64,000 nucleotides of DNA from Asparagopsis taxiformis (Eukaryota > Rhodophyta > Florideophyceae > Bonnemaisoniales > Bonnemaisoniaceae), in NCBI GenBank assembly GCA_030407315.1, contig JALQPE010001955.1:115163-179162 (forward strand), read 5' to 3'. Position 1 is the first letter of the stretch. The number at the start of each line of letters is the position of its first letter. A model generated the notes under the pieces. It did no database searches. It was not told the DNA's origin and saw only the letters and a list, made by a program, of their open reading frames with translations. A program made the translations under genes and the position numbers. Positions 21,028 through 47,657 of the stretch are shown piece after piece.

Positions 21028-21041
21028 CACTACGGTGTTGA
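21028..21041 (+). repeat. Left terminal inverted repeat
   Basis: CACTACGGTGTTGA. It matches the reverse complement of 47644-47657 and of 13186-13199 over all 14 bases. After it come AAAAGGGGG here and GAATGAAAA at the other end, so the perfect repeat is short. Confidence 0.85.
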
Positions 21042-21049
21042 AAAGGGGG

Positions 21050-22215
21050 CCTCAGACAGTACTGCGAGACAGTGATTTTTACTGTCTGAGACAGTAAAAA
21101 TCACTATGCGGCAAATGAAAATTAATGCCACACTTGGAGACAGTGATTTGCACTGTCTGGCAGACAGTACGGAACACTGTCTGCAGACAGTAAAAAACAC
21201 TGTCTCACAGTACTGTCTGAGGCAGTGAATGGAGACAGTAAAAATTAATGATTTATTCAATAGTTGGATATGATGTAATTTACTGTACTGGGCAGTGTTG
21301 GCGGATAGTGTTTTGTATTGGCCAAGGCAACATGGCCGGATAGTGAAATACGCTGCCTGGGACAATAGATGGAACCAACACGGTGCACTGTCCTGGGCAG
21401 TACCTGGAGACAGTGATTTTCACTGTCCTGGGCAGTACCTGGAGACAGTGATTTTCACTGTCCTGGGCAGTACCTGGAGACAGTGATTTTCACTGTCCTG
21501 GGCAGTACCTGGAGACAGTGATTTTCACTGTCCTGGGCAGTACCTGTAGACAGTACTTTGTGCTGCCTGGGCAGTACCTGTAGACAGTATTTGTGCTGCC
21601 CTGGGCAGTGTAGACAGTATTTCGTGCTGCCCTGGGCAGTACCTGTAGACAGTATTTCGTGCTGCCTGGGCAGTACCTGTAGACAGTATTTCGTGCTGCC
21701 CTGGGCAGTACCTGTAGACAGTATTTCGTGCTGCCTGGGCAGTACCTGGAGACAGTATTTCGTGCTGCCCTGGGCAGTACCTGGAGACAGTATTTCGTGC
21801 TGCCTGGGCAGTACCTGGAGACAGTACTTTCACTGTCCTGGGCAGTACCTGTAGACAGTATTTTGCTGCCCTGGGCAGTACCTGTAGACAGTATTTGTGC
21901 TGCCCTGGGCAGCACCTGTAGACAGTATTTGTGCTGCCCTGGGCAGCACCTGTAGACAGTACTTTGTGCTGCCCTGGGCAGCACCTGTAGACAGTACTTT
22001 GTGCTGCCCTGGGCAGCACCTGTAGACAGTATTTCGTGCTGCCCTGGGCAGCACCTGTAGACAGTACTTTGTGCTGCCCTGGGCAGCACCTGTAGACAGT
22101 ATTTCGTGCTGCCCTGGGCAGCACCTGGAGACAGTATTTCGTGCTGCCCTGGGCAGCACCTGGAGACAGTATTTCGTGCTGCCCTGGGCAGCACCTGGAG
22201 ACAGTAAAAGTAGTG
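21050..22215. repeat. Left subterminal repeats (ACAGT palindromes and a 35-bp tandem array)
   Basis: 21050-21290 holds loose AGACAGT...ACTGTC palindromes. From about 21395 to 22215 there are roughly 23 tandem units of ~35 bp, each with CAGTACCTGGAGACAGT or CAGCACCTGTAGACAGT followed by a CTGTCCTGGG or GCTGCCCTGGG half. Long apparent reading frames here are a by-product of the array. The array is longer than the 0.37-kb set at the right end. Confidence 0.9.
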
Positions 22216-24006
22216 TCCTGATATAGTAAAATTCGGTGTCTGGGAGTGGTGGATGAGATGGAGCGTCACGCTGTCGTGGGCATCTTTCTGGGGTAGAGGA
22301 AGGCAGTTCTAGCGCTATGAGGATGGGGCATGGACGGTATTCATATGGGAATGGACAGAATAGTACGGCTAGGAATTTTTATTTCGTAGTGACTATGAGC
22401 TAGCGAGAGGTATACGCGGTAGGATAGGTAGCAATCTAAGAGGGTGCGATATGGGAAGCTTCACTCTGGATTTGTTTATTTGCGCAGGCTACATTGAGAA
22501 TAAACAATCCCTATGTTAAAAATGCTACTACAACTAACACTATTCCGACGAGTAAAACTAAAACTACTAGAAAAGTCTAGAAATCTATCAACTGATTGAG
22601 CTGCATGAATAAGCTAGGAAATGAAGAGAAGAAGAAAAAATGATGTAGAGAAAGGAAACAAGTTAGTGACGTTGAATTGGAGAGGGAAATTGATGGTGAT
22701 TAGGAGACTAACGTACCTTAACAAATACCATTGCATCCCAAATTGAGATATGTACTCACAGGCAGAAAAGAAAAGTAGTGGAGAAGTGGTAAGAGAGAAA
22801 GATAAATGAAAGTAGAAGTGGAACACTCACCGACTGGAAACCTGAGAAAGAGAAAACGAATAGAAAACTGGGTTAGTGGCGTGAGTTGTGGAAACGTACC
22901 ATCATGGTTCATATCCGTCGGAGACAAAGCAACAACTTTGGCTTTGGAAGCAGTATTGATGATCTACAACTTACGCTTTGGAAGCAGTATAGATGATCTA
23001 TACTGCTTCCACAGCCGGGTTGTTGCTTTGTTTCCGACGGATATGAAGATGGAAACAGGGATTTCCAGAATCTGTTGTTTAAGTAGCACTCTGCGGGCGG
23101 AAATGACGTGTAGGAGAACAATAGAGGGATGAATTTGAAACGGAGCGGTGCGATGGGAGGCCCAGAAAAACGATACCTAGGGTGCGAATTACGCTTTGAA
23201 GCACATGACCTGGCAGAACAGGCGCAAAATTATTGTATCTTCTACCGCCTTCTCTAGTCTATAATGACGTCATCACTACAGAAATATAGGAAAAACACTA
23301 GCATATGGGGCCTACTGGAAAGGGGGAGGCGAGGAGTAGGAAAAATGGCGCACTTTCCTGGACGAGGAGTCCGCGCTTCCAGTGATGATTTGGACGGTAT
23401 ATATCGATGACGTCATTGCATGCTCTGAGCACACTTGGCAGGCAGTCAAAGCGGGCCACGTGGATGTGGGCGGCTAGGAAACAGCAGTGTGGGAGAAATT
23501 TTATAATTTTCATGTTGCAAGCGAGCAGTGAATCTGCATTGCAATATATAAATTTATGCTAATTTAAGATATCACACCGAGTACGATTCAACGAGAGATT
23601 GTGCTTTCAACTTGTAAATAGGGCCGAAAATGGTAGAGTATACGAGTAGGAAGTACGTGTATGAGAAAATCAGATTCAGTATTAGTGCCTAGAGCATCAC
23701 TGCGAAATAAACGGCCGTTTTCCGGAAATGGATACATCTTGGCTGGGTTTGTGGTTAGGGGATGCGATACAAGATAGCAAAACGATGTTGAGTCCGGATG
23801 AAATAGCAATCAATGTGCATAAAGCAATGAGCATAGGGCAAAGCATTGTGGTGAACCAGTTCATTGGATCGAATGAAAGCCTGGAAAGGTTTCGTAACGG
23901 TTAAAAGTAGTAGTACTGTATTGAGATAGTAGTCATGTCATAGAAGTTTAGAGTTGTATTCTATGCAACAAAACTGAGCGAAGAAGAAAAGAACAAAAAC
24001 ATCAAG
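22216..24006. other. Leader region of the transposase gene, with a foldback
   Basis: No convincing coding region. It contains the foldback at 22908-23047. The rest is A/T-rich and should carry the transposase promoter. Short frames crossing the foldback look fortuitous. Confidence 0.4.
22908..23047. repeat. 140-bp nested foldback
   Basis: Outer arms TTCATATCCGTCGG at 22908 and CCGACGGATATGAA ending at 23047 extend through ACAAAGCAACAAC and its complement. Inside, GGAAGCAGTATTGATGATCTA is followed by a near-perfect palindrome GGAAGCAGTATAGATGATC ... TACTGCTTCC at 22981-23010. Transcribed, it would form a long hairpin upstream of the transposase. Confidence 0.75.
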
Positions 24007-27000
24007 ATGGCTCCGAGACGGACTCCTATTCGAAAGAAAACCACAAGTCGTAGGACAAAGGCGAGATTCGATTCACTCAATGTGGCCAGTCCCAGTAAAC
24101 AGCTTCCTGGGAAACTGCAGGGAGAAATCCGCAGCAGTGATGCAGCCTGCATGAACAAAGAAATCCCGAGAGGTAATGAGCTACGACGTGAGTGTACCAC
24201 AGATGACCTATTGGAGTCCCCAATCCCTATGGGTGACACAATAGAAGGTTGTATTGATGTGTACAGCAACAACGATGAAGCTGGAAGTGACATCTACGTA
24301 GCATCGAGCACGCTAATGGAATCGGAAGAAGCAACCGGACGAGGTTCTGATTCCATTTCAACTGGAGGCCCGATAGACCGAAATGCTGGGGATGAAGCAT
24401 GTGGTGATTTCAAGGCATTACTACAATGGCCTGCGATGTATGGGGCTCTTCAGCTGAGTGGAACTCAAAGAATGACAAGAGCCCACTATGAAGGTACCCT
24501 GTTCGGAATGAATTTCCGCAGAGATCCAAGTGAGCACGTCCCGTCGGACTCTGTGATGCGACAGAAGATACTACCATTCTTGAGGAAACACTGCTATGCA
24601 AAGAGCTGTGACATCGAGTTTCCGATAGACCTTCGAAAGAGCGGAGCAAGAGCTGCACAGCATCGAGGTGCAGTAGGAACCCGTGGAACAACAGATGACA
24701 GAGACAATTGTGGAGGAATGGCGAAAGTTCGTATTGTACTCCCAAGCACATGGGCTCTGAAAGATGTCCAGACTCGACCAATCTTTAAAGCATTCCGCAG
24801 TGATGCGAACAATCGAAGCTCGGAAGGAGAAAAATCAACCGCAGAGTGCAGCATTGAAGATTCGTTCATTGCAAAGTGCAGGAGGGGTGTTTTGAGCGAC
24901 CCATTCGTTCGCACAGCAGTTGTTCCCATTGACAGCGATGGGAAAAAGGGTTTGAAGCACATTTATGTACCTGATGGAACAGCAATTCGAATCCGATGTC
25001 ATCCAGGAGCTCGTCAGGTTGCCGTCATCGAAAGAGCAAAAGGGTTCAGGAAGAATGACAGAGATGGTGGGAAACCGAAGAGGAGAAGAGTGGCGGTTAC
25101 GTCGTTGTGGGAACTTCATGCTAGGACCATAGTTACCTATGAGGCTCGACACGACGGTGAGCATGATGTGCATGTCGAAAAATATCTGCAGCCGCGAATG
25201 TCACATCTATTGGAATGGGAGAGGCAGCATGCTCTGCGAGCGATATCGCAATGTGTAATCGGAGCAGGAGCCAAGGGAAAAGGAACACGAGCTGGGGACG
25301 TGATAACCGTTCTATTACCAATTGGAATGGAAGAGGGTGATATTGTTCCACACGTCGTATTGGTGAACAGGTATTTGAAAGAGCAGGTCGGAGAAGCATC
25401 CACCATGTTACTTTGCTTTTCACCGGGCGCGAGCTTTGCTGAAGCCAGAAACCCGCCCGATAGACTAGGAAGCCCCAACTATGAAGAAATTCGTGTTTCA
25501 GGGGTGTTCTCGGATGGTTTCGGAGACCACAGGTCGCAATGGCACCCAGCGTCTCCGCGAGAAGATGCACCATGTTGGGGAAAGCTGGAGGATGGTCGAA
25601 ACTACTTTGTTTACCGATTTCTCCTTTACACGGATGACTTTGAACCATTCACAAGCAGGAAGGGAAGTTTTGGTGGATGCTATATGTTACCTCTCAATCT
25701 ACCGCCTCGGAAAAGGGGAAGCTACCAAGCGGTTCGAGTGATTGGTTTGCCACCTCCGGGAGTGTCCACAAATTGTGTATTGCGATATATCGTTCAAGAT
25801 ATAGTGCGAGGAAGCACAGAGGGTTTCCCAACGAAAAATGCAGAGGGAGAAGATATTGTGGTATTTCTAGACCCAGTGGGGAGCATTGGAGACTATCCTG
25901 CAGTTTCACATACCCTGGATGTTCTTGGACACACATCAAACTCTCCGTGCCACATCTGCAGTTTCCGCAAATATGACCTGAGCAGTACTGGTGGCACGAA
26001 GAATGCATACACTTCGGTAGTGAACGGGCAAACATCGACGCATGCCAGGAGCAAGTATCGGAATGCATCGACACGTAAGGATGCCACAGAAACCCAGCTT
26101 CGCACTCTCGGACTGGCTGCAGAAGAAGGGGAAGATTTACCATTTCATGTCCTGAGCACTTCCTTGGAAGCAGTGCAGGAAGAAGTACCGAAGACGGAAA
26201 ACGGAGTTTCAGTTGTCCCAGCAATTTTTGACCCGTACCGTTCCGCAGTGATAGCACCTGACCATCTATTGTCTGGACTGGCACAAGATGTACTGAACGC
26301 TTGTATTTCAGCTGCCAGCCCACGAATTCGAGAGGTAGCTGAATTGCAAATTCTGGGCGCTCTGAAGAAGTTCAGGATGGGAAGGCAGAACCGTTTATTT
26401 GGAACCAACAATCTGCTTTCCATGAACATGAGTGACATATTCAGTGTGCTTCTGATAGCACCTATGGCATTCGAAAACGCAGCTCGAATGATGGATGGGA
26501 AAGGGGAAGGTCATCGTGAAAAATTTGATGGGGCCGTCAAACTAGTAGTGATGTTTCAGAAGCTGGTTTCGTGTATTAGTTTCATGCCCGTATGGTGGAA
26601 AGACGGTCCCCATGAAGTAGAGACGGCTGACGGAGAAGGTGGCAGGAATGAATACATTCTGGGAAGAACTGTAGACTACGTGGAGACGTTGAATGAGTAT
26701 TGTCGGAAAGTGAAGGGAGCAGGAGCACATTTGGACAAGCCTAATGTTCATCGTCTTGTCGAGTTTTGTGTTCATACGCTTCCTGCCTACGGCTCTGTGA
26801 AGCACGTGCAGGAGCTTATATTCGAACGGATGCATCAGCCGCTGAAGAAAGGTGTGAGAATGTCCAATCACCAAAGCGAACAGCTTTCAGCGCTGGAATT
26901 AGTTCTTGCGGATGACTGGCAGACGAGAGTGGCCATTGTTTTGCGCGAAATCGGCATGGAGCCACAACATTGGTCCTCGTCCGAATGCTCTCAAATGGTC

Positions 27001-27810
27001 AACGTTCTTTCACAGGAGCTAGGGAGAGAAATAGATGTGGAAGACGAGGTAGTGAAAAACTGCTTCCAGGAACCGGTTCTCCAGCTTCTCTCCCAGCGTC
27101 GAGGAAAGATATTGTCGGCGGATGGTGAAATTGTGACGTGGAGAGGGCATGGAGGTATATCTATTGACGAGGTCAAGGAGTACATGAATGGAAAATGTGA
27201 TATGGCAGAGGGTGCTGTAGGTGTTTTCAAACGGTTCTTTACCGAAAGGTACGGAAGCGGAACAAGCGGGTGTGGAAAGTATGCCGAATGGGTGAGAAGA
27301 GTTTCTAGAAGCACTACGACAGAGTGGGGAAGGAAAACAGTGCAGAGGTCTGGCTCTCTAGAATCAGGAGCTATCATCCATGCTGTTTGCCCTGAACAGA
27401 TGAAATGTGAGGATGGTGCAACTTCACAAGCGATTCTGTACCCGGCGTCTCGTCTCACATCAGAGATAATGCGGGGAAGAATTAATTATGAACCGCGGTT
27501 TTTTATTGTTCTAGCGTTCTTTATCCTGAGGAACGAGAGTGCGAGAGATGAGCAAGGTACAGCTTATGGAGTTTGCCTGGGTTTGCAAAAAACTGATGAA
27601 GGAGTGTTCAAGGTCGAAGAGAGGCGACGAACAGTAATTGTGGAGATGAGTGAGGGAGTCACTGAGGTGTTTGGTATGCACTATTGCAATGGGAGTGTAT
27701 GCGAATATGATGAGAACATGAGGGAGGTAAGGCACGGACCCGGACTGCTGGAGGGTGGAGAGATATATGCACTATGTAGGCGAGACGGATTTCCACCGAG
27801 GGCTGCATGA
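24007..27810 (+). CDS. Tnp2/CACTA-like transposase (1267 aa), intact
   Basis: ATG at 24007, uninterrupted to 27810. The basic N-terminus (MAPRRTPIRKKTTSRRTK) suits nuclear entry or DNA binding. Around residues 620-650 the sequence VVFLDPVGSIGDYPAVS ... GHTSNSPCHICS matches the Tnp2-type pattern of an acidic residue, DxPA, GH, then CxxC. Around residue 940 FERMHQPLKKGVRMSN resembles the C-terminal conserved block of the same families. The expected role is to bind the terminal and subterminal repeats and cut-and-paste the element. It is the only transposase between the terminal repeats and is followed by a palindrome block. Acidic catalytic residues are not assigned individually. The possibility of spliced forms is open, but the single frame makes introns unnecessary. 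Confidence 0.7.
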   Translation: MAPRRTPIRKKTTSRRTKARFDSLNVASPSKQLPGKLQGEIRSSDAACMNKEIPRGNELRRECTTDDLLESPIPMGDTIEGCIDVYSNNDEAGSDIYVASSTLMESEEATGRGSDSISTGGPIDRNAGDEACGDFKALLQWPAMYGALQLSGTQRMTRAHYEGTLFGMNFRRDPSEHVPSDSVMRQKILPFLRKHCYAKSCDIEFPIDLRKSGARAAQHRGAVGTRGTTDDRDNCGGMAKVRIVLPSTWALKDVQTRPIFKAFRSDANNRSSEGEKSTAECSIEDSFIAKCRRGVLSDPFVRTAVVPIDSDGKKGLKHIYVPDGTAIRIRCHPGARQVAVIERAKGFRKNDRDGGKPKRRRVAVTSLWELHARTIVTYEARHDGEHDVHVEKYLQPRMSHLLEWERQHALRAISQCVIGAGAKGKGTRAGDVITVLLPIGMEEGDIVPHVVLVNRYLKEQVGEASTMLLCFSPGASFAEARNPPDRLGSPNYEEIRVSGVFSDGFGDHRSQWHPASPREDAPCWGKLEDGRNYFVYRFLLYTDDFEPFTSRKGSFGGCYMLPLNLPPRKRGSYQAVRVIGLPPPGVSTNCVLRYIVQDIVRGSTEGFPTKNAEGEDIVVFLDPVGSIGDYPAVSHTLDVLGHTSNSPCHICSFRKYDLSSTGGTKNAYTSVVNGQTSTHARSKYRNASTRKDATETQLRTLGLAAEEGEDLPFHVLSTSLEAVQEEVPKTENGVSVVPAIFDPYRSAVIAPDHLLSGLAQDVLNACISAASPRIREVAELQILGALKKFRMGRQNRLFGTNNLLSMNMSDIFSVLLIAPMAFENAARMMDGKGEGHREKFDGAVKLVVMFQKLVSCISFMPVWWKDGPHEVETADGEGGRNEYILGRTVDYVETLNEYCRKVKGAGAHLDKPNVHRLVEFCVHTLPAYGSVKHVQELIFERMHQPLKKGVRMSNHQSEQLSALELVLADDWQTRVAIVLREIGMEPQHWSSSECSQMVNVLSQELGREIDVEDEVVKNCFQEPVLQLLSQRRGKILSADGEIVTWRGHGGISIDEVKEYMNGKCDMAEGAVGVFKRFFTERYGSGTSGCGKYAEWVRRVSRSTTTEWGRKTVQRSGSLESGAIIHAVCPEQMKCEDGATSQAILYPASRLTSEIMRGRINYEPRFFIVLAFFILRNESARDEQGTAYGVCLGLQKTDEGVFKVEERRRTVIVEMSEGVTEVFGMHYCNGSVCEYDENMREVRHGPGLLEGGEIYALCRRDGFPPRAA

Positions 27811-29033
27811 TTTTTAGGGAAGAATAAAATGAATAACCAGATGCATCACATATGAATTGTACACTCTAGGGCGGTGGTGGATTGGTGCAAAGTAGTGGGG
27901 AGAGGATCTGAGAGGATGGAGGGAGGTATGCTTACAGCAAAGTCATCGTTACGATGACTTTGCTGTAAGAAAACGTTTCCATTACAGTGGCCAAGAATTT
28001 TTTACCGGGTAAAAAAATCGTGGCAGCTGTAATGATTTGCTTTCTTACAGCAAAGTCATCGTAACGATGACTTTGCTGTAAGGAACCGTTTCCTTGCAGT
28101 GGCCGAAGAATTTTTTACCGGGTAAAAAATCAGCAAGAAATTTTACCGGGTAAAAAAATTGTGGCCGCTGTAATGATTTGCTTTCTTACAGCAAAGTCAT
28201 CGTTACGATGACTTTGCTGTAAGAAAACGTTTCATTACAGCGGCCACAATTTTTTACCCGGTAAAGAAATCATGGCTGCTGTAATGTTTTCTTTTCTTAC
28301 AGCAAAGTCATCGTAACGATGACTTTGCTGTAAGAAAACGTTTCATTACAGCAAATTCATCGATAGTTAAGGTTAAGTAACCAACTTTAGGATGTCCAGA
28401 GGACCTGCTCGTTGTAAGGAATAAGGAATATTGATCAACTGACGAAGAGGAAGCATTTTGAATCGACTAGGGTAGGAACGCAATGAGATTTGGTATGCAA
28501 GAAAACTGAATCGCAGTAGTGAATAGGTAGTTGAAATGAATTCATATTGATGTTCTTTGGTGTATTGTCCATTGGAGCACATTGAAAACCATTTATATGA
28601 TCACCGTTTAAATAGTCTATGAATCCTTTGCAGCCGAGTACGCCAATAGGAAGAAATTCAAGCAGTGGCCTGCACGGGAACCGTTCATTTGTGAGTAGCA
28701 AAAGTTAGTGTAGAAATGAATTTTTCAGACTTGTAGGAGAGGTGGATCGTAGTAAATGTATAAAACTCACGTAGAATCGATTGATAGGAATCAATGGTAC
28801 GGAAGAAGAAGCGAGGTGGAGAGTGTGGATGAAATAGGTTGTTGGAATATGAATGATAATTGACGTGGTGAGGTAAACGGGTTCGATTGCATTATATGCG
28901 CTAGAGGTACATACTATTAGGTGTAGATTGATGGAAAGGGCTAAACGCTTTGTGGAGGTATCAGGATCAGGTAGAGTCAGAGGTGCTGAGCGGGTGCAGC
29001 GTAAGGTTCATCAGGACTGAACGTAGGTAGGGA
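27811..29033. other. Intergenic: palindrome block then A/T-rich leader
   Basis: The palindrome block occupies about 27930-28375. From 28376 to 29033 I see no gene; it should carry the promoter of the next gene. Confidence 0.4.
27930..28375. repeat. Palindrome block after the transposase
   Basis: Four 37-nt palindromes (TTACAGCAAAGTCATCG arms) start near 27931, 28045, 28187 and 28297, spaced about 110-140 bp, with TTTACCGGGTAAA-type palindromes between them. The centres alternate between GTTAC and GTAAC. Confidence 0.85.
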
Positions 29034-32000
29034 ATGTCTTGTCCGGACAGTATAAGAGAGGAAGCTGAGAGACGGGAAGCGCACTCGGAGGTACCACAAT
29101 TGTGGATTTCATCGTCTACACAACATTTGAACAGAGAACCGATTGAACGAACTGAGATTGCAGGGATTACAATGGGAGACAATAGTATCATGAATACTAC
29201 AGCGGAGAAGAGCAATTCTCCTTCTGCTGAAGAGAAAAGCATCACTATTGCTCAGTACAGCTCTTCTAAAGTGCAAGTTGATCCTCGCAAAGTGAAATTT
29301 CCGACAGTGACCTCCCGTTTGGTGCGACCGGGTCGTGTAAACGAACTGGCCAGCATTTTCATGGATAGAGGTTTCTCTACCACTGGAACTATGATTACAG
29401 TCTGCAAAATGGAAGATAACGAAGGAGACGAGTTTTACTGCATCGATGGCTCTCATCGCATAGCTGCTCTGCAACTATGCCTGGAGAAGTACTCAGGAAA
29501 GAACAGGGATTCCTTGGAATTGGTTTGGGTACAACAGTTGATTGCGCCGAACGGGCGTCTAATTTTCGATGCGCTGGAGGTTCTGAAACTGTCTCTCGAA
29601 GCCAATATACAAACTCACGATGTCGCTTCTGTGAGCATTGCCGACAATGTGTGTGCGGTCATAGAGTTTCTCAGGTTTTCCAACCAGATGGATCTTCCTG
29701 TTGTCCGGCTTATTCCTATTCTGAAAGAAGTGAGCTATATTCTGCCGTCCGACAGGAACCGTTCGGAGAACTCGTATAGGCAGTACATCAACATTGCGAA
29801 GGGGTTCAATCGCACAGACAGCGTTGCTTTCGTGTACTGGAGCTCTATCCCTAGCGTTTACAATGCTTTGGATAGGAACAGAGAAATCGAGGATGCAAGA
29901 ACCGAGGGAAGAGATCCGGACTTTTCTCGAATTGACTCTGCCGATATGTACGGGTGCGTGCTCGATCTTGTCAATAACGCAATATTCCGCAATGGCACGG
30001 ACGGACGCGGGACGCGCGATAAGGAGTGGTTCCAGTGGTTTGTGCTCGAGATGACAGCGTCGTGGACAAGGATGAGGAGGAAGAGAGGACTTGTCAGAAA
30101 TATCGGAAGCGGAAGTCCGTTCACGATGCGCACTTGGCTACTGGCTCTGTTGGCCATCTATGATATGGCAGAGGTCGTCCGCAAGTGGTTGAACTCTGCA
30201 ACGATGGAGGAATTCGTGCGAACGGATTTGGCAGCAGAAAACGCGAAGGAGGTCGGGGATAATGATCATCGCATTGGAGAGCGCATTGTATTCGTCCTTG
30301 TCGACTTTCATGACGACGTGGTAGACAGTAGCAGTCTGAGAACCAAGAACGGGATGTTTACAAACAGTTTTTACGACAAACTGGAATATGCTACCGGGAC
30401 AAAGGCAATGCAGGAGACGAAAGCGGAGGAGGAGAGGGAACGGAATCGCATGACCCCCGGAGAAATAGAAAAAGCACTTGTTGATGGCGCCAAAGCAGAA
30501 GACGAAGAAGCACCTACTGCCGCAGAACAGGGAAATAATTCTACAGAGAAGGAAACTGTGGAAACTTCTGGTCCTGTTCAAGCAGAAGAAGGAGTATCTG
30601 CCGAAGCCCAAGCAGAGCAGGAAGTTTCTGCTGTTGTGGAGGAAGAACAGGAAATTACTCCAAATGTGGTGGCTGAAGAAGTGATTCCTGCTGTCGCGAC
30701 GAAAGCAATAGAAGAGGCACCTCTGAGCACCCCGAAAGAAGCAGAAGACCGTCCTGCCGCAGCAAAAGAGGGAGGACAGGAACGTCCTGCCACGCGTCTT
30801 GCAGCAGCTGAGAAGAGGGAAGCAGAACGTCTTGCTGTTCTCCAAAAAGAACAGGAACGTCTTTCAGCTTCAAGGGCAGAGCGGGAAAGTCGTGCCAGGG
30901 ATAATTCGCCGGGAAGGATTGTCAGAGAAGATCTTCCTCAGGGAAGGAAACAAAGCGGCGATACGCAAAGTCTGGATATCAACTTGGACAATAGTGGTCG
31001 CATGGACATAGACACGCCTGGACAACAAGCTGGAGATGCGCAGAACCGCTCTGTGATATTGAAACTTCGAATCAGGACACCAGAAACTTACAGCACTAGC
31101 CCGGCCGAAGTGGACAAGGAGAATTCGGGAAGAAGCAGGAGTTCTGGTGGAAGCGGCGATGAAAACGAGTCCAGGTTGGATAAGAAGCGAAGAAGGGAAG
31201 ATACTAGCGCGAAGTTTTCTGAGCCCAATACGCCGGATGACAACATTGAGATTGGGCCTCCCCGGGAAAAGAAGAGTAGAGTCAATGCAAGAAAACGAAC
31301 GACTGGAGAAGAAGCACCACTCTTCACTGACGAGCAAGAAAACTCCCTTCCAGACCGCACATTCGCAGAGGACATACCTGAGAAGCTGCCTTTATGCGTT
31401 CCTTCCAACTCGAGAATGAAGTATTATATCACAGAAGAAGACATTGATACAATCCGGACGGAGATAATGGAAGCAGCTGCAGGCTACTCTACTTTGGTAT
31501 GTCCCCTCGGTTCTTGTGAAAGCCAACAATACTTCAGCTACCAGAGAAGAATGATCGACGAGCTTGGTTACGTGGTGTTGCAAGACATTTTCTCTTCTAC
31601 TACAGTGGGAGCAGCTACGCACGAGTTATTCACACAGATGGCCAGCACATTCCAAGGTACTACAAGTGGCTCAAGTGCAAGTCAGAAGAACCCGTGGAAA
31701 CCACTTCGACCGAAAGACAGCACTGGTGTATTCAAGACGGACCGGAAAAGCATCTGCGATGACCTTGAGCAAGAAAGCGCGCGGCAGTACAGGAACAAGC
31801 TGATTCTGGAGCTAGGTAAGGCGATTTGTGCGGAGAACCTGAAGCTCGGGTTTGGAAGAGAAGAAGCGGTGGTCTTTCCAGAAACGGGTCTTCGTCTGAT
31901 TTTGACCGCAGAAGGTAGTCAGGAGCAACTTATGCATACCGATGTTCCCGTCCGTGAGGGAACTGGAACTGGTCCTCTCAACTCGCCATCATATTTCATG

Positions 32001-37969: not shown

Positions 37970-38345
37970 AGAGAAGGACGAAACTCCCTGCTGCTTACAG
38001 CCGAAGCCGTTTACCAGGGTTCCTTACAGCAAAGTCATCGTAACGATGACTTTGCTGTAAGGAACCGTTTCCTTGCAGTGGCCGAAGAATTTTTTACCGG
38101 GTAAAAAATCAGCAAGAAATTTTACCGGGTAAAAAATTGTGGCCGCTGTAATGTTTTGCTTTCTTACAGCAAAGTCATCGTTACGATGACTTTGCTGTAA
38201 GAAAACGTTTCATTACAGCGGCCACAATTTTTTTACCCGGTAAAGAAATCATGGCTGCTGTAATGATTTGTTTTCTTACAGCAAAGTCATCGTAACGATG
38301 ACTTTGCTGTCAGCACCCCGCCGGAACTGCCAAAGCTGTAAGCAG
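37970..38345. repeat. Palindrome block before the methyltransferase gene (1)
   Basis: Three 37-nt palindromes start near 38022, 38164 and 38276. The opening CTTACAGCCGAAGCCGTTTACC is present. This block is one of two in Y where X has a single block. Confidence 0.85.
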
Positions 38346-38796
38346 TCTGGCTTCACCCTCTCCCCCATTTCTCTACTCCGCCTTCAGCATCCCAGCCTCT
38401 CTGGTGACGACTGACGCCTTTCGTTTCCCCCCTCACGCCCCCTCTCGCAATGAAATACTCGTCTATTACCACGATAGGCTACTCGTACTGCCGCCTTAAT
38501 TTTCCTCTACACACACCCTCCCATCCGTCTCTTCCGTACTACGATCTTAGGCTATCCTACCTTACGATTATAGTTGTATAGTGAGTAGCTAGAGTCCTAC
38601 TTATTGACGACTATAGTGCACCGGAACCGGCGCCGGTTCCCGCCCGGGCGGGTTGAATATATATTTTATGCCGTGAGGCACAGGTACCATATGGTCGCTG
38701 TGGCTCACGGCACAAGGAGTAGATTTTGCGACCAACAGCCGTCCAAACCATCCTCCCGTGATGTTCCCTACTTCACACTTCGCTTCTCATGTGAGA

Positions 38797-38874
38797 CAGC
38801 AGGGAGTTTCGTCCTTCTCCCATCTTGGTAAAGGTACCTTTACCAAGAAGGGAGAAGGACGAAACTCCCTGCTG
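38797..38874. repeat. 78-bp near-perfect hairpin
   Basis: Arms of ~38 bases with one mismatch, beginning CAGCAGGGAGTTTCGTCC and centred on GGTACC. Its right arm is also the opening of the next palindrome block. The same GGGAGTTTCGTCC motif caps the block at 32515-32815 in inverse orientation. Confidence 0.85.
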
Positions 38875-39335
38875 CTTACAGCTGAAGCCGTTTACCAGGG
38901 TTCCTTACAGCAAAGTCATCGTTACGATGACTTTGCTGTAAGAAAACAAATCATTACAGCAGCCACGATTTCTTTACCGGGTAAAAAAATTGTGGCCGCT
39001 GTAATGAAACGTTTTCTTACAGCAAAGTCATCGTAACGATGACTTTGCTGTAAGGAACCGTTTCCTTGCAGTGGCCAAAGAATTTTTTACCGGGTAAAAA
39101 ATCAGCAAGAAATTTTACCGGGTAAAAAATTGTGGCCGCTGTAATGTTTTGCTTTCTTACAGCAAAGTCATCGTTACGATGACTTTGCTGTAAGAAAACG
39201 TTTCATTACAGCGGCCACAATTTTTTTACCCGGTAAAGAAATCATGGCTGCTGTAATGATTTGTTTTCTTACAGCAAAGTCATCGTAACGATGACTTTGC
39301 TGTCAGCATCCCCGGTAAACGGCCCGCACTGTAAT
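38875..39335. repeat. Palindrome block before the methyltransferase gene (2)
   Basis: Four 37-nt palindromes start near 38904, 39015, 39157 and 39271. The last part (to CCCCGGTAAACGG) matches copy X at 4800-4860. Confidence 0.85.
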
Positions 39336-39610: not shown

Positions 39611-42600
39611 TCAGTTAGCTGGCCAATATTTTCTACCATAGTCAGCAAATATCTCCTCATCAGCTTCAACGTCTCTGGTCAGAACGACCTTGACAGCATG
39701 GGGATTCTTGATATTCGAAGCAAAGTCCGGTTTGTCTATGGCATCGCCTTGTCGAAACTCGGCTGACTGTGTTCGACTCACCTCGGTCGCTTTCTCCGTT
39801 CCGTCAATGACCCGACAATCATTGAGGTAGCTGGTACAATTATAGACCGCTGGAACGAGCCAGACCTTCCGAACAGGTGCACCCCTCCCTATGTACGTGG
39901 TTTCCAATTCCATGTTGTAGTCCTGGAACCTCTGTCCTGTGCACCCAAATCCTTCCGGGCCGTACATCACTGATCTCTGCGGTTCCGAGTCTCGAATCTT
40001 CGCATAGAAAATCGTCCCGTTGTACCAGCCAATGACCGTCCCCTTCTTCAGTTTCTTCGCCGCGAATACGCCAAACCCACCACCTCTTACCTCCGATTGC
40101 GAAACATAGACACCGTAGAATGCGGCATCAGCAGCCAGAATCGCGTCCGGGTCTATGCTCCAAAACGAGTGCATGTCCTCGGCCGGCCACTGGTCCATAG
40201 GCACCCCGCTCAATCTGTGAAGCATAGAACCGTCCTTCTTCATTGACGCAACGAACACAAGCAGATGGTTCGGCAATGCTGTCACAGCAGGTAAACCTTC
40301 TGGTGCATCTGAGATGTGCTTCTGACGAAGCCTTGGAGCTTTTCCTGTGACCGGTACCGACTCGTCCCCAAGAATACTCTCCACCTCACGCTGCAAGATC
40401 CCCCCATATCGCCCGGCTTTCACCTCACTGACGAAAGCATGCAGTATCCACTCCTGCGATGCATCGTGGCACCTTTTTTCCTTCTCACACCCAATGAACC
40501 GACGATACGTACCATCCCTCAACGTCATACACGCTATGGCTGTGCTGTATGTTCCCGAGAAGAAATCCATCACGATATCGTTCTGCTTCGAAAATCGTTC
40601 CAGAAGCTCACGAAGAGTGGTCAACGCCTTCTGCTCATGGCGCAGTCGGTTGTTCTGCCCATCGTATTGAGCTTCACCAGCCGACAACCTCGGAACGTTG
40701 TCAATCGCGTTGGTGAACCCAGGGTGCCTCGATATGTCCGGATTGTGCAACCTGTAATCCACCATATCGTATGCAGCCATACCCTTCCCCCGCTTATACG
40801 CATGGATAACGAAATCGTGCATATTATGCAGTGTGCACGTTTTCGTCGATGGATTGGACGTAAAGCTGTGTGGTCGGCGAGATAGCACGACTGGAACACT
40901 GTCCACAATCATCTTGCCAGGCTCGGCATTTCTGATTGCATCCATCCATGCCACGAGTTGGCGCACGCTGGAATAGATTAGAGCATGACCGCCAGGCCGA
41001 AGAACTCGAACTATTTCACACGCAACACTCGCCAACTCTTCCGGCTCCAGAATATCGTACTCCGAGTTTTCTCTGCCGCCTTCCCGCCTCGTGTTGAATG
41101 GAGGATCAGTGAGCACAAGCTGAACACTGTCCTCCAACACGCCATCTTCCAGGAAACTAATTTTGTCCTCCACCTCTTTGGCTACATCAGTGGCGTCACA
41201 ATTCACAGTGTGAATGTAACGCCCCATCACAGCTTCCAGCTTGGTGACATATTCCGGCTTGGATTCCTTTCCGACGTCAACGAGCGGTGCTTCTGTAGGC
41301 GATACAGTGTCAACCTCCATAGCGTCATCCTCGGCCGCACCTTCTCTTGTTGCTGTTTCGCTAGCAACCGCCGCATTATCGTCCTCTCCACCACCGCGCT
41401 CCAGCCTAGCCTTCTTCCTCTGTGGCTCCAGACTATCCTCTTCTATATCCTCGCTGCCATTGTTTGGCACTGCTGCGGATATTTCCATCTGCGCAGGTGC
41501 ACCTTCAAGGATGCCAGGCTCGGGCGTATCCTCAAGACTGTGCAACTCATCCATGGTCAGAGGAAGCTTTCGTTGCTCTCGGGTTCGCAATAACCAAGCC
41601 TTCAGCCTCCTCTGACCATCCAGGGCATGAGACGTGTTCAACTTGGCTCGCATGAACGAGTTCAATCCGAACTTGTCAGGAGTGTCGAAAAGCAAGGCTC
41701 GAAGTCTCTGCATCAGCTGACCACGCTCGGCGAACACATTCACCTCAGTGACACATTGGCGTATCGACAGCAGGAAGGCGCTTGTCAATGATCGCAGCCT
41801 TGCATCCACAGCCACTGGAAGGTCGGCACAGAACCCGTTTTCACTGTCTACAGTTTTCGGGACAATGGTCAGGTTTTTCCGATGCTCCTCGACCGCGCAG
41901 CCATCAGACCGATTCGGGAGTGACCTGAAGCAAAGGCTCGCAGGATCGAATACCATGAACGGCCAGCACATCGATTCAACATCCTCATACCCCAACACTC
42001 TTGCCCCGGTATCCCACGCAGCTAACACACGGTCGACAACAAATCCAAGCTGGTTGGCTTGCGCACTGGATGTTGCAATTCCAACCATTCCACCACCACC
42101 AATGGCCCCGGATGTGGCTCTGGCCCGCCTAGATGGCGCACTGCCCATCTCCTTACTGCGAATAGCCAAGATACACTGGCACATCATAACCATCAGCCTC
42201 CTGAACCGCTTCTGGCTAGCCTGCAAAGAATCTTGCATGTCGGATGTAGCGCCGTCTAGAAAGTACCTGCTCGAAAGCAGTTCGCGGTTCAGTGGAGAGG
42301 ACAATTCTCCGCGGGGTGTCTTGCCAAACATTTCGACGGCACGAGAACTAGTCACCCCCACCTGTTTCGGAAACTCAACCATCCTCGGAGAATCACCCAT
42401 CTCTGCATTGAGTCCCCATGCATGACAAAACATTTGCCACAGACGCAAATCAATCGCACTCGAATCTTCTGCTCGGTGATACGGCCGAAGCACAGCCAGG
42501 ATAGACATGCATGAGCTGTACTGCGGTTTACCACTCAGGCTTGAAGCAATTTGGCCGCTTGGATCGCAGGACTTGATCCAGCCCAACACATCGGCCATCC

Positions 42601-43078
42601 TCACAGACGAAATATGAGCGTACTTGTCCTTTCCTTTTTGGACCCAGTACTCGTCTCTGAGATCAACGGCGATCATCAGATACTCAACAAACATCATGCG
42701 CCTTTGCAGGCCTGCAATGTCGTTGGATGTCGTCGCTCTCACACGGTCCAGCACAACAGCAGTACTGCTGTTGGTGTCCGCCACGATAGACTCTTCTCGC
42801 ATAGGAATCGTAACGCCAGGAGGAAAGACGCCCTTCTCCATTCCACGTACAATTGCCATGCAGCGGTGCGCTCCATCCAATATCTCCAGAACGCCTTCTC
42901 GAAACCTGCCAGTCACGGGATGAGCTGTGTCATAACCGCTGTTGCGAATGCTCTCCATGAGCGCTTCCACATGACTTGCATCAACATCGCGAATCGATAC
43001 GAATTTGCTGACTTGATTGGGGTCGATGAACACCCATCCGTCGTGCTTTTCACCGTGATTGTGGAACGTTCCTTCCAT
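39611..43078 (-). CDS. ParB-like / DNA amino-methyltransferase / SET-domain fusion (1155 aa), intact
   Basis: Start at ATG 43078 (MEGTFHNH). ParB-like domain ~16-95: WVFIDPNQVSKF, VEALMESIRNSGY, LDGAHRCMAI. The helical region shared with the dioxygenase proteins follows (for example ATTSNDIAGLQRRMMFVEYL). An acidic linker with KKARLERGG leads to a methyltransferase: TDPPFNTRREGG with DPPF at 658-661, LRPGGHALIY, then MDFFSGTYST at ~838 and FIGCEKEK. DPPF before the FxG motif is the order of beta-class N6-adenine/N4-cytosine enzymes. The last ~170 residues form a SET domain: GGGFGVFAAKKLKKG, SYLNDCR, EEIFADYGRKYW, matching lysine methyltransferases. One protein could thus methylate DNA and a protein such as a histone, guided by a ParB-like DNA binder. 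Activity is inferred. Divergent from the Tudor-like gene. Confidence 0.75.
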   Translation of the reverse strand: MEGTFHNHGEKHDGWVFIDPNQVSKFVSIRDVDASHVEALMESIRNSGYDTAHPVTGRFREGVLEILDGAHRCMAIVRGMEKGVFPPGVTIPMREESIVADTNSSTAVVLDRVRATTSNDIAGLQRRMMFVEYLMIAVDLRDEYWVQKGKDKYAHISSVRMADVLGWIKSCDPSGQIASSLSGKPQYSSCMSILAVLRPYHRAEDSSAIDLRLWQMFCHAWGLNAEMGDSPRMVEFPKQVGVTSSRAVEMFGKTPRGELSSPLNRELLSSRYFLDGATSDMQDSLQASQKRFRRLMVMMCQCILAIRSKEMGSAPSRRARATSGAIGGGGMVGIATSSAQANQLGFVVDRVLAAWDTGARVLGYEDVESMCWPFMVFDPASLCFRSLPNRSDGCAVEEHRKNLTIVPKTVDSENGFCADLPVAVDARLRSLTSAFLLSIRQCVTEVNVFAERGQLMQRLRALLFDTPDKFGLNSFMRAKLNTSHALDGQRRLKAWLLRTREQRKLPLTMDELHSLEDTPEPGILEGAPAQMEISAAVPNNGSEDIEEDSLEPQRKKARLERGGGEDDNAAVASETATREGAAEDDAMEVDTVSPTEAPLVDVGKESKPEYVTKLEAVMGRYIHTVNCDATDVAKEVEDKISFLEDGVLEDSVQLVLTDPPFNTRREGGRENSEYDILEPEELASVACEIVRVLRPGGHALIYSSVRQLVAWMDAIRNAEPGKMIVDSVPVVLSRRPHSFTSNPSTKTCTLHNMHDFVIHAYKRGKGMAAYDMVDYRLHNPDISRHPGFTNAIDNVPRLSAGEAQYDGQNNRLRHEQKALTTLRELLERFSKQNDIVMDFFSGTYSTAIACMTLRDGTYRRFIGCEKEKRCHDASQEWILHAFVSEVKAGRYGGILQREVESILGDESVPVTGKAPRLRQKHISDAPEGLPAVTALPNHLLVFVASMKKDGSMLHRLSGVPMDQWPAEDMHSFWSIDPDAILAADAAFYGVYVSQSEVRGGGFGVFAAKKLKKGTVIGWYNGTIFYAKIRDSEPQRSVMYGPEGFGCTGQRFQDYNMELETTYIGRGAPVRKVWLVPAVYNCTSYLNDCRVIDGTEKATEVSRTQSAEFRQGDAIDKPDFASNIKNPHAVKVVLTRDVEADEEIFADYGRKYWPAN

Positions 43079-43591: not shown

Positions 43592-44953
43592 ATGCTTCCT
43601 CTCGCTCCAAACGACGTTATAGAAGTTCAATGGGAACTTCGGCCGTTTGGGAGGAAACGAAAAATTGTGTGGTGGTCTGCAATCGTCAAGGAAATTACTC
43701 AGGTCAAGACCGAAACAGACCCATTCCTCCATGCATTGCTCGAATACAAAGCTGAATATGGTTTCGACTCTACCCTTTCTCAAGTCAAGATTTCAGATCG
43801 TAACGAGCTCGTCGACAAGGATTCCGGAAGGGTTCTCCCGTGGCGAAGTGGTGAGCTTCGCAGTATGGACTCACCTGCATCCCCAGCAGAGAGAGACCCG
43901 GACTACGGCATTGACCACACTCGCCACCGCCACCGCGGCATCCTTCAAGATTGCACTGCGGATCAAATGAAGAAGACCATAGCAGAAATGCTGGCAAGAT
44001 TGGAAAAGCTGGAGTCAGCTGCCAAACATCCTCTTCCCCCTCCATTCGATTCCAACAGCTCCATGACCTCCTCTGCTCTGACTGTATGTAGCATTCTGTT
44101 TCAGAAGCTTGGTGTGTACACGGACAAGCCCCTCTCCCTCCGGATGACAAAATCCGAGCACTCCAGGGGAATGCGACAAACATCGCAAGAAGAAATCAGA
44201 GTACAGGCTGACTGCTCCCTTGCTCAATTCCGCACTATTGCCATTCAATGCAAGGCGAAAGAGAATCGTGATGTTCTCTTCCTGCCGTCCTTTGAGGACA
44301 TCACCTTTCCCTCTGGAAATGAGTCGGATCTTTCCATCATTTTCCCCACCTTTCAGGCACTATGTGACTCCATAGGTACCTCGCAACACGGGTTCCAGAA
44401 AATATTGGTGAAGAGCAGGGCGGAACGCGATGGAGGCAGCTCATCGATTGTCCGAATTTTAGGAAATCTAGTCGACGTTGACTGCTCTCATGATGCTCCT
44501 TCTTCCGCATTTCTCGTCGGCTCATCTGCTTACGTCCTGTCCAGCCCAGACCAACGTATGACAGTTCTTTGCAGAGACTCCTACGAGTTTGACCATGTCA
44601 ACAATACATTTTTACATCCCCTATGTCTTAGCCAACTATCACAGTCTAGCATCGTGGACTCTTTCCACCTACGTGATAAGGCTACTGTTACTTATGGAGC
44701 AACGTTTTCGTTACTGTGGAGACGTATTCAGCGCCGAGCTTGTTACAGCACTTTCCAGCCTCTATCAACCGCAGAGACGTTTGGTACACTACATCTACGC
44801 TTACCTTGCTGTATTTTCAGTGGTACTACTATATGCCAGGAGCTTGAAGACATTGGCTATGAGGCTATCTCTCGTCTTGGCTTCAATGCGGATTCAGACA
44901 CTACCCACCCACCCTCTCCTCCACCTGCCACCTGCAGTCCGGAGCAAAAATGA
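43592..44953 (+). CDS. Tudor/SH3-like N-terminal domain protein, copy Y (453 aa)
   Basis: ATG at 43592, same length as 9125-10486. Residues 5-85 carry the barrel-like pattern (VQWELRPFG, VWWSAIVKEI, LLEYKAEYGF, RNELVD, LPWR); residues ~120-145 form a short coiled coil. The substitutions that change residues (for example Leu9Val, Gly to Arg in LCRDSYEF) are few and conserve the frame. Head-to-head with the ParB/methyltransferase/SET gene, which by context makes it a candidate reader or partner for that enzyme. The C-terminal two thirds is not recognised. Confidence 0.65.
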   Translation: MLPLAPNDVIEVQWELRPFGRKRKIVWWSAIVKEITQVKTETDPFLHALLEYKAEYGFDSTLSQVKISDRNELVDKDSGRVLPWRSGELRSMDSPASPAERDPDYGIDHTRHRHRGILQDCTADQMKKTIAEMLARLEKLESAAKHPLPPPFDSNSSMTSSALTVCSILFQKLGVYTDKPLSLRMTKSEHSRGMRQTSQEEIRVQADCSLAQFRTIAIQCKAKENRDVLFLPSFEDITFPSGNESDLSIIFPTFQALCDSIGTSQHGFQKILVKSRAERDGGSSSIVRILGNLVDVDCSHDAPSSAFLVGSSAYVLSSPDQRMTVLCRDSYEFDHVNNTFLHPLCLSQLSQSSIVDSFHLRDKATVTYGATFSLLWRRIQRRACYSTFQPLSTAETFGTLHLRLPCCIFSGTTICQELEDIGYEAISRLGFNADSDTTHPPSPPPATCSPEQK

Positions 44954-45228: not shown

Positions 45229-46755
45229 CTACTCCCCTTCATTCTCGATTTCATCATCGACGAATACCTTCACATATTCTGCATCTCCTCCGTCCTCTTC
45301 CATAGACCTGAAGCTCTCCTCCAGCACTGATTCCCCCCCATCGTCTACGTTCAGTTCTTCATATCTATCACGCGATATAGTCAAAACCTCCTCATTCATG
45401 AACCGACTACTCACCCGCTCCCCGGGAAGAAGCAGTTTCACTGCTTCATTGATTTCCCGGATTTGCGCTCCTTCCACCTCTGTTCCACTTTGAAATTTCA
45501 AAATCGTTCGGAACCCGTATGCAAGTATGTAGATGAATTGCAAGGAGTATTCTGAACGTCGCAGGAACATGTTCTTATCAGAACATTGCGTGTAGGCGAC
45601 TGCAAAGTTCAGTGCAACCTCTACTAAATTGATCCTCCTAGTCAAAAACCTCTTGTCCGGTTCTCCAATTATTTGAACTTCGTACTCGACTTTGAATAGC
45701 ATTTCTTTTCGCACTGCAATGAAGTCGCGAAGAATCTTCATATTCTTGTCATCCATTGCTGCACGCTCCGCTGCATTCATTTTCCTCTGCGCCGAGTACA
45801 GACTTGGAACTGACTCAATGTCCAGCCCACCGTCGTGCAAATGATGCTCCATTCGGACTGAACCTTGAAACCCACTGTATAGAACGAATCCAAGATCTCG
45901 GATGAACCGGTTTCGCACATGATCTCTGGACTTGTTCATAAACCCGGTCACTGCTGTGAGTGCCGATTTCGTCACAGTGATGCCTACCTCCTTTCTGTGC
46001 AACGGCCCATTGTCTCCAACCTTTCTTCGCTTCTGCTTTCGAGCGGCCCCATCACTTCCCTCGGACGTCCCATGCATTCCATCCATGCGAGCAGAGTCCG
46101 TTCCGCGAATTGTCTCCTCAATGGTCCCGGTAGTCACATACCCCCGCGCCCTCCACCGTTCGATACCTTCCGACGTTCCATTGGAGCTGGAACGGTCTCC
46201 TCCCTCTCTGAAAGAATTGTTTTGACACGTATTCTTGATTAAAGAGGTCACAACTTGGCAGCGCAATTCAATGTGGTTCCGGCCGGCAAGCGTCCTATTG
46301 AACACATCCTTTCGCTCATTGCTCTGCCTGGCGAACATCAGCGTATTGATTAGCTGGCATCCGTTGAAATGCCTATCCCTCTTATCCACCATTGCCTTCG
46401 TGTACGTTGGAACAACAGCACACAGCACAGCACACACCATTTCGAACGTGAACGATTTCTCCGCATCCTGCGCAATGCGGAGACGTTCCCTGTCCTTCTC
46501 GGAGGCGATCTTCTTCGGATGTCCTTGTCCCTGGCTCAGAAGCCCATCGACGATGCTCTTGACCTCCTGCATATCGGTGTTTAGCATGGAGACAGTCTTG
46601 GCGACATTTCCGAGAGTCTCGCGTAATTGAATGGTGCTCTTCTCGACGGCATCCATTTTATCACTCAGGGCTTTCAACTCTGCAGTGATGTTCGAAAAGC
46701 CCTCACGCGTTATTTCGGAAAATGCGGCGATGCTTACGGAGGTTTCGGGATTCAT
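45229..46755 (-). CDS. Coiled-coil protein of the element, intact (508 aa)
   Basis: Start at ATG 46755 (MNPETSVSIAAF); codons upstream differ between the copies and lack ATG. Residues ~15-85 form a heptad-like coiled coil (ITAELKALSDKMDAVEKS, LRETLGNVAKTVSMLNTD). A polar linker with RKQKRRK follows, then a helical C-terminal half (ALTAVTGFMNKSRDHVRNRF, NLVEVALNFAVAYTQCSD, YSLQFIYILAYGF) and an acidic tail. Family unknown. A degraded relative at 57764-59291 keeps the same order, so the family also exists outside this element. By position it may be an accessory protein, for example binding subterminal repeats as small CACTA proteins do, but no DNA-binding motif is evident. It converges on the Tudor-like gene. 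Confidence 0.6.
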   Translation of the reverse strand: MNPETSVSIAAFSEITREGFSNITAELKALSDKMDAVEKSTIQLRETLGNVAKTVSMLNTDMQEVKSIVDGLLSQGQGHPKKIASEKDRERLRIAQDAEKSFTFEMVCAVLCAVVPTYTKAMVDKRDRHFNGCQLINTLMFARQSNERKDVFNRTLAGRNHIELRCQVVTSLIKNTCQNNSFREGGDRSSSNGTSEGIERWRARGYVTTGTIEETIRGTDSARMDGMHGTSEGSDGAARKQKRRKVGDNGPLHRKEVGITVTKSALTAVTGFMNKSRDHVRNRFIRDLGFVLYSGFQGSVRMEHHLHDGGLDIESVPSLYSAQRKMNAAERAAMDDKNMKILRDFIAVRKEMLFKVEYEVQIIGEPDKRFLTRRINLVEVALNFAVAYTQCSDKNMFLRRSEYSLQFIYILAYGFRTILKFQSGTEVEGAQIREINEAVKLLLPGERVSSRFMNEEVLTISRDRYEELNVDDGGESVLEESFRSMEEDGGDAEYVKVFVDDEIENEGE

Positions 46756-47275
46756 CTTGACCTTGCAATTGGAGTTTGCTAAAAGGAGAATTGCTTTGAA
46801 GGATGTCACGCTTAGTACAGCAGTGTTGTAGCAAATATCATTTCAGTGGATGCATCCATCCTGGTCTACTCTACATAATAATAATGCTTCCCAGTGCTCC
46901 GTAACGGTTATTTTTCATAATTTAGTGGTGGATGGTGCGTATTCTTTCCTTTGCCACCACCCACGTCCTGTGCATACCACACCTCGCTACCAGACTGACG
47001 TCTCCTACTAGACACTTTCAATGCAAAGATAGATAGGTATAATTTGAAATGCTAAACTCAACATATTATAGCTACTATGTACATTCTCTCCTTACGGTGA
47101 GACAAACCAGATATGTTCTGTTCTCCCAATCTTCCTTTCTCCAACGTCCTATTCAGCATCTAGCTTCCCCGCACCCAACTATCTGTAAAGCACCATCACA
47201 ATTAATATAGTCGTATACCACACACCATTCCAATATTTACCTTCACACCAACACTATGCTCCATATTTCCTCTAA
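46756..47275. other. Upstream region of the coiled-coil gene (Y), no gene seen
   Basis: A/T-rich and close to 12288-12829. Promoter expected; no motif assigned. Confidence 0.4.
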
Positions 47276-47657
47276 GTCCACTCCACCAGACAGTGTTGTC
47301 AAACAATGCACGGTACTACCCGCAGACAATACAATTTGCTATCTACACTACTGTCTACAGATTTCCCCAGACAGTGCAGTAATACAGTACAATGTATTGT
47401 CTCAGACAGTAAAATGTACTGTCTGCACATACTGTCTGGCGGCAACACTTCCGGACAGTAAAATTTACTGTTCTGGACAGTAAATTTTACTGTTTTTGGT
47501 ACTGTCCAGATTTCGTGCCAGTTTACTGCTGCAGCAGTATTCTGAAATTTCCAGACAGTAAATTTTACTGTCTCCGCGCACTGTCTTGGCCAGACAGTAA
47601 TTTTTACTGTCTCAGACAGTAAATTTACTGTCTGTTTTCATTCTCAACACCGTAGTG
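47276..47657. repeat. Right subterminal ACAGT palindromes and right terminal inverted repeat
   Basis: Repeated AGACAGT/ACTGTCT pairs around A/T cores, ending TCAACACCGTAGTG at 47644-47657. Nearly identical to 12830-13199. The base after 47657 is already inside the first unit of the large inverted repeat. Confidence 0.85.

Follow-up and report, generated by a model that had tools for sequence, protein, structure and literature searches.

The 64,000-nucleotide stretch of Asparagopsis taxiformis DNA analysed here (the window; C1830:115163-179162) contains a giant transposon of 26,630 bp at positions 21028..47657 of the forward strand. Its ends recur throughout the genome, complete copies carry the same six genes in the same order, and empty sites record its insertion: that it is a mobile unit is virtually certain. 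Among its genes is one that joins a DNA methylase to a SET domain, and between its genes lie arrays of a conserved 35-bp palindrome. The best explanation of the whole, to which we give about an even chance, is a DNA transposon of the CACTA/EnSpm-Plavaka (CMC) group that moves by cut and paste, was active recently and would carry a self-directed epigenetic kit.

Ends, copies and insertion sites

The genome scanned comprises 141,494,207 bp in 3,156 contigs. The element is bounded by a 14-base terminal inverted repeat (TIR), CACTACGGTGTTGA, at 21028..21041 on the forward strand and, as its exact complement, at 47644..47657 on the reverse strand. This 14-mer occurs 1,431 times genome-wide (722 + 709), against none for a reversed-pattern control, and one exact 23-base form of the right end is present at 341 of these occurrences. 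The left subterminal region (21028..22228), inside which lies a 35-bp tandem array (21388-22206), holds 44 ACAGT/ACTGT motifs in 1.2 kb, and the right subterminal palindromes (47280..47657) hold 19 in 378 bp: densities of 37 and 50 per kb, compared with 1-2 per kb in the interior and flanks. Perfect TIRs beginning CACTA and matching subterminal ACAGT palindromes had been proposed from the sequence, and both are borne out.

The position of the ends is equally well defined. Forty of 1,159 candidate matches to the left end were scored, the window's own among them, and all 40 begin at query base 1 (21028); 40 of 905 candidates were scored for the right end, the window's own not among them, and all 40 finish at the last base (47657) with 100% identity over 848 bp. 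Further rows of these searches (41 left, 40 right) are short secondary matches inside the repeat-rich ends. No differing end appears among the 40 + 40 scored matches, and the predicted boundaries stand. Nine other left ends adjoin nine distinct flanks.

Two other copies, C337:91920-118325 and C44:50859-78046, were read at full length and are colinear with the window copy across all six genes. Long blocks are 99-100% identical, the left-end array is 94-96% identical, and breaks in alignment are located in the terminal tandem array and the palindrome arrays; C44 also contains about 1 kb repeated at 98%. All six frames are open in C337, with 0 to 8 base changes per frame; in C44 a frameshift interrupts ORF3 and the other five are open. 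The expectation of further copies with both termini is realised in these two, while that of six genes kept as one unit holds for their order in both copies but not for the integrity of ORF3 in C44. Five further pairs of ends, read at the ends only, lie 25.3-27.6 kb apart (C632, C615, C168, C2208 and C74), and at C2657 the contig stops about where the right end is expected.

Incomplete and nested copies are also found. The window itself holds a second, truncated copy (4177..13199, forward strand) that consists of the right third – a frameshifted ORF4, ORF5 and ORF6 – at 98% over 8.7 kb and terminates at a right TIR. ORF1 sequence can be recognised by eye in the left flank of C225, whose wider flank also matches ORF1, and the left flank of C135 matches ORF3 at 98%. 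In three loci of rearranged relatives an outer left end is separated by about 6.47 kb from an inner one, which falls at the same spot in all three (C117, C135 and C101; L047, L048 and L053), the signature of a nested insertion that was then amplified.

Empty sites reveal what insertion leaves behind. The filled site at C19 reads GCGGAG–element–AGGCCC and the empty one GCGGAGGCCC, a gain of 2 bp (AG); of nine loci that span the joined flanks, two differ only by the 2-bp gap and one substitution, whereas in the remaining seven a tandemly repeated part of the flank also contains larger indels. Gains of 2 bp are likewise seen at C104 (GA) and C74 (GC), with one empty site read for each. The 19 scored empty places for C104 are each 238 long for 240 query letters; the 21 for C74 are each 243 for 244 letters, so that a compensating base must lie outside the 66 bases read. 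Ten flank pairs could be judged, and in four (C19, C104, C74 and C615) they match at 2 bp; the chance probability of at least four such matches in ten, at 1/16 each, is 0.0024. Left out of this count were C64:3-19326 (only two left-flank bases, which match, AT), C10:63817-72570 (where the second end proved to be a left end nested at a site shared with others) and C337 (whose contig stops at the TIR).

Several observations weigh against this picture. At C168 a single T is gained relative to all eight empty-site loci, in a flank that holds several other 1-bp indels, and in C44, C632 and C2208, as in C168, the flanks match at one base only (T). At C1608 and C788 the expected right end was not found in the stretch read, so not every left end heads a copy of standard length. 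The copies differ by too few synonymous and nonsynonymous changes for selection to be demonstrated. The flanks of the window copy and of C64:23292-38829 do not match at all; the window copy lacks a target duplication, and the repeat that forms its right flank has, where uninterrupted, a context that does not match the left flank. In C2208, C615 and C64, as in the window copy, the two flanks are non-contiguous in related sequence that matches one of them.

Canonical CACTA elements make a 3-bp target duplication. Such a duplication is rejected here: no flank pair of the ten matches at 3 bp, and the four insertions with an empty site gave 2 bp in three and 1 bp in one. Of the 2-3 bp originally predicted, then, only the lower figure was found, at C19, C104 and C74.

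Clustered subterminal repeats and a short CACTA..TAGTG TIR, two marks of CACTA/EnSpm elements, are both present. So are the CA..TG termini and 2-5-bp duplication that define the CMCT clade in the available text of PMC12730594, C168 with its 1 bp excepted. The same text gives 2 bp for PlavakaA and 2-3 bp for PlavakaB, lengths into which the duplications at three insertions fit, and gives fungal Plavaka ends as TGT..ACA or CATCA..TGATG, whereas the present element ends CACTA..TAGTG. Because no 3-bp duplication was found and its putative transposase matches no Pfam transposase family, the element is CACTA-like by ends and motifs only, and its place is in the CACTA-Plavaka (CMCT) neighbourhood rather than among CACTA members proper.

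The putative transposase is ORF1 (24007..27810, forward strand; 1267 amino acids), an open frame in which the motifs NLPP..R, GDYPA, CxxC and ExxHxxxK, picked out by eye, are what we take to be those of a CACTA/Plavaka-like enzyme. The proposed Tnp2-like transposase would agree with these motifs but draws no match in family scans: ORF1 has no Pfam match at E ≤ 10, TNP2/Transposase_21 included, and none to PF18759 (Plavaka), while another frame of the window, 60786-62555, matches PF18759 at 1.7e-21; comparison of ORF1 with neighbouring Plavaka frames by hhalign is not significant. The available text of PMC12730594 describes CMCT transposases as having C(2)C and H(3-4)H between the second D and the last E; ORF1 has C2C at residue 648, and H(3-4)H was seen only upstream of it. 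The 2-bp duplication is documented by the empty sites; the motifs suggest that ORF1, acting at the CACTA ends and the subterminal ACAGT repeats, would be its agent.

The accessory genes

Six long open frames are present in the window copy, as originally predicted, with first ATGs resetting the starts of ORF3, ORF4 and ORF6. The clearest of the accessory genes is ORF4 (39611..43078, reverse strand; 1155 amino acids from the first ATG), which comprises a ParB-like N-terminus, an N6/N4 DNA methylase (DPPF) and a SET domain. Pfam returns DNA methylase PF01555 at E 2.3e-16 and SET PF00856 at E 4.2e-6, and PHROGs returns phrog_4272 at 1.7e-5 and the ParB-like phrog_1033 at 0.003; NCBIfam adenine-methylase matches are sub-threshold, and a PDB sequence search gave weak methylase matches only (E 0.002). 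DPPF, at 661, precedes a DFFSG motif at 841, an order that we take to mark the beta class, N6-adenine type. That ORF4 contains methylase and SET domains, as the original prediction had it, is hardly open to doubt; their activity is a prediction.

ORF2 (29034..32294, forward strand; 1086 amino acids) combines a ParB-like N-terminus (DGSHR at 138) with a dioxygenase-like C-terminus (HTD at 968 and a distal H at 1040). Its paralogue ORF3 (33871..37518, forward strand; 1215 amino acids from the first ATG) is built in the same two-part way, the two being 34% identical over 334 residues (E 6e-42). Upstream of the element, frame 17379-19379 preserves a truncated copy of a different gene; 66 further matches to it, at 97-99%, were scored (of 3,657 candidates). 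One full version of that gene (L082:927-5027; 1,366 amino acids) has a ParB-like DG.HR domain and an HxD...H C-terminus. Dioxygenase-like domains thus recur in several high-copy families, with the ParB-like half seen in L082. An apparent third dioxygenase-like gene (HLD, RSH, EHAGPG) is encoded by the sequence into which the C74 copy inserted (L072, L073).

The case for ParB-like domains is one of convergence. ORF2, ORF3, ORF4 and the L082 gene share the motif V..R.V....V..L.......G...DG.HR..A, and these regions draw weak matches to PHROG ParB-like families (best 5e-4, in two of four members), to GmrSD_N (0.053) and to DndB (0.089), all of which belong to one superfamily. Set against this, no Pfam ParB family matches, GmrSD_N and DndB fall below cut-off, and unrelated families score alike (DUF1583, 0.039); the best PHROG, phrog_4272 (3.7e-7), has no stated function, and family scans with Pfam, PHROGs and NCBIfam report no helix-turn-helix domain in ORF2-ORF4. 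On balance these N-termini very probably belong to the ParB-like superfamily. ORF4 would then unite a ParB-like domain, on weak scores, with an N4/N6 DNA methylase in one protein.

For the C-terminal domains the evidence is a pattern of residues: four residues of ORF2 – H968, D970, H1040 and R1059 – are the same in ORF3 and in the L082 gene, although the three sequences are no more than 23-40% alike, and an HxD...H iron triad followed by a distal R is the pattern of Fe(II)/2-oxoglutarate (2OG) dioxygenases. Against it stand the absence of any dioxygenase or TET/JBP match in Pfam or PDB, the absence of a named PHROG, and two AlphaFold models, built from window sequences only, that were unusable (pLDDT 30). 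PDB searches with the ORF2 C-terminus and with alignments A3, A4 and A5 yielded one chance-level row each for A3 and A4. We lean towards membership of the dioxygenase superfamily and call these domains putative dioxygenases. Whole-database protein searches with ORF4, ORF1 and an ORF2+ORF3 alignment returned one entry each, at 99-100% identity to the query; as each search scored only 8,000 candidates, distant relatives are not excluded.

The two remaining genes are less informative. ORF5 (43592..44953, forward strand; 453 amino acids) was predicted to be Tudor-like, a claim that gains no support from Pfam (E ≤ 10), PHROGs or NCBIfam, none of which returns a match, and we assign it no function. 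ORF6 (45229..46755, reverse strand; 508 amino acids from the first ATG), predicted as a coiled-coil protein, does have a coiled-coil-like N-terminal stretch, but its family matches are weak: DUF1664 and BORCS6 (below the Pfam cut-off), phrog_11209, and IcmG/DotF (below the NCBIfam cut-off).

Palindrome arrays and self-recognition

A critical issue is whether the accessory proteins could recognise the element that encodes them. The best sequence evidence bearing on this comes from a feature absent from the original prediction: the intergenic stretches between ORF1 and ORF2 (27933..28332, four copies), ORF2 and ORF3 (32547..33635, 3 + 3 copies) and ORF3 and ORF4 (38025..39304, 3 + 4 copies) hold arrays of a 35-bp palindrome, TACAGCAAAGTCATCGTWACGATGACTTTGCTGTA, among which two further repeated motifs, TTTTTACCSGGTAAAAA and CATTACAGCGGCC, are interspersed. 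All 17 copies in the element are intergenic; 12 are exact and five have one mismatch. Elsewhere in the window the palindrome occurs three times in the truncated upstream copy and nowhere outside the two copies; genome-wide there are 6,755 exact copies, against 0 for the control.

The palindromes are conserved where their surroundings are not. Across three rearranged relatives, 20 of the 22 palindromes remain exact and the other two carry a single mismatch; palindrome columns differ at 3/319, 7/287 and 2/210 positions (0.9-2.4%), while the other columns of the same alignments differ at 232/1223, 225/1147 and 87/643 (13.5-19.6%). Three considerations temper this contrast: gap columns were scored as differences, and alignments of repeated units need not be orthologous; the three relatives form one subfamily and so represent a single case of conservation, not three; and homogenisation of repeats might also account for the purity of the palindromes. 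The conservation is most simply read as constraint on a binding site, with homogenisation as the rival account, and we tentatively regard the palindromes as candidate binding sites of the ParB-like domains, at somewhat less than an even chance.

Putting these elements together, the ParB-like domains would bind the intergenic palindrome arrays, or spread along them, and would hold on the element both ORF4 – a predicted beta-class DNA methylase fused to a SET histone methyltransferase – and ORF2 and ORF3, which, with their Fe/2OG-dioxygenase-like HxD...H domains, would oxidise or remove bases or marks. The likeliest outcome would be a self-marking that keeps the chromatin of the element expressed, or that tells the transposase which DNA is self; as an outcome we consider this possible rather than probable. 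The scheme in its boldest form, an address-and-modify system in which ParB-like readers on a parS-like palindrome (present some 17 times) would direct a methylase-SET writer, together with two oxidising enzymes, exclusively to the element, is more doubtful still.

Other explanations deserve consideration. The palindromes may be unrelated to the ParB-like proteins – terminators or promoters, transposition enhancers, fold-back elements or nested repeats – and kept pure by unequal exchange and gene conversion. Their confinement to the stretches between genes 1/2, 2/3 and 3/4 would suit such roles, and units are gained and lost between copies, as expected of tandem repeats that homogenise easily; but exchange should homogenise the spacers too, and it is only the palindrome columns that are conserved. 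We judge this account rather unlikely. That the cargo works in trans, on host chromatin or on competing transposons, is improbable. The recurrence of ParB/dioxygenase-like genes in other high-copy families, seen in the many close matches to the truncated upstream frame, speaks for it, since such families may counter one another; yet the palindrome, limited in the window to the element and its truncated copy and not found at the L082 locus, favours an address in cis.

A still less probable view makes the accessory genes passengers without a role for the element (Pack-type capture). Gene capture by transposable elements is common, and ORF3 is broken in the C44 copy; six frames remain open in both the window and C337 copies, however, and two paralogous fusions in one element, with more dioxygenase-like genes in other repeat families, are not what passengers would lead one to expect. 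Finally, that the element is a chimeric contig of unrelated repeats is scarcely credible. The non-contiguous flanks of the window copy, C2208, C615 and C64, and 1-bp indels near some junctions, would fit an artefact of assembly, but colinear copies in two other contigs, the five more end pairs at similar spacing and the clean empty sites lead us to reject it for the element itself, the window copy's own flanks excepted.

Neighbouring repeats, related systems and implications

The element is surrounded by other repeats. A different family, with its own tandem repeats and a Plavaka transposase (PF18759, 1.7e-21), occupies both ends of the window (57331-63872 and 1-4176). The stretch of about 7 kb at 47658-54528 has long inverted arms (pieces of 0.7-1.3 kb, 93-99% alike) and is perhaps a separate fold-back or long-TIR element that abuts the right end of the giant one. 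An 854-amino-acid open frame on the reverse strand (13455-16016) has no assigned function; the left flank of C632 is 75% similar to this DNA, which makes the frame probably another repeat gene. Contig C469 holds 11 of 13 phycobilisome matches and, from a repeat offset of 177,170 bp, looks like a circular plastid, as would suit a red-algal host.

Giant EnSpm/Plavaka elements are reportedly known from another red alga, Bostrychia moritziana, from work by Petroll and colleagues in 2025 that is cited in PMC12477816; these reportedly share with the present element a red-algal host, very large size, several accessory genes and CACTA/EnSpm affinity. Close in cargo is Sola1-1_Ec32 of Ectocarpus (PMC12477816), likewise a giant transposon, in which a ParB-like domain and an N4/N6 methylase share one protein (1104 amino acids, against 1155 here) encoded on the strand opposite the transposase, and for which the authors have already proposed self-modification; it differs in being a Sola-1 rather than a CACTA-like element, and the available text of that paper mentions no SET domain or ParB/dioxygenase partner. 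According to the accessible parts of PMC12730594, fungal Plavaka and EnSpm transposons carry TET/JBP enzymes and thus offer a parallel of CMCT-group DNA transposons, PlavakaA with 2-bp duplications among them, that bear a base-oxidising enzyme, although the domain described here matches no TET/JBP family and is joined to a ParB-like one. The same parts mention HarbingerS and MuDR elements with a SET histone methyltransferase, but these belong to other superfamilies, and in the present element SET and DNA methylase form a single protein. The giant Plavaka repeats known from Amoebidium (PMC11244446, accessible parts) share a size of up to 50 kb, intron-poor genes and a Plavaka transposase; their described cargo, in contrast, is tyrosine recombinases. 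A Tudor domain in a Gypsy element has also been reported.

The literature searches made yielded no paper that links ParB and dioxygenase with transposable elements and base modification. Both giant EnSpm elements of red algae and accessory proteins that pair ParB with a methylase have been published, while the present combination looks new: in the texts available we found neither the fusion of SET and methylase nor ParB/dioxygenase-like fusions nor conserved arrays of palindromes described, and we make no claim to priority. The main text of the A. taxiformis genome paper (PMC12115072) contains no occurrence of Plavaka, EnSpm, CACTA or ParB. The parts of it available give 33.48% DNA transposons for the L6 assembly and, in a figure legend, adenine-specific and site-specific DNA methyltransferase genes on the contig of the bromoform cluster; these genes might belong to elements like the present one.

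Non-CG DNA modification, that of adenine included, is a matter of debate in eukaryotes, and little is known of its writers. The element described here is intact and present in many copies, and it combines a predicted DNA methylase fused to a histone methyltransferase domain with candidate erasers and a defined candidate recognition site. If the proposed scheme is true, it would constitute a eukaryotic counterpart of the logic of bacterial partition and DNA modification, with competing giant families in one genome carrying different versions. The element bears on whether transposons write their own epigenetic identity, and does so in a red seaweed of practical interest.

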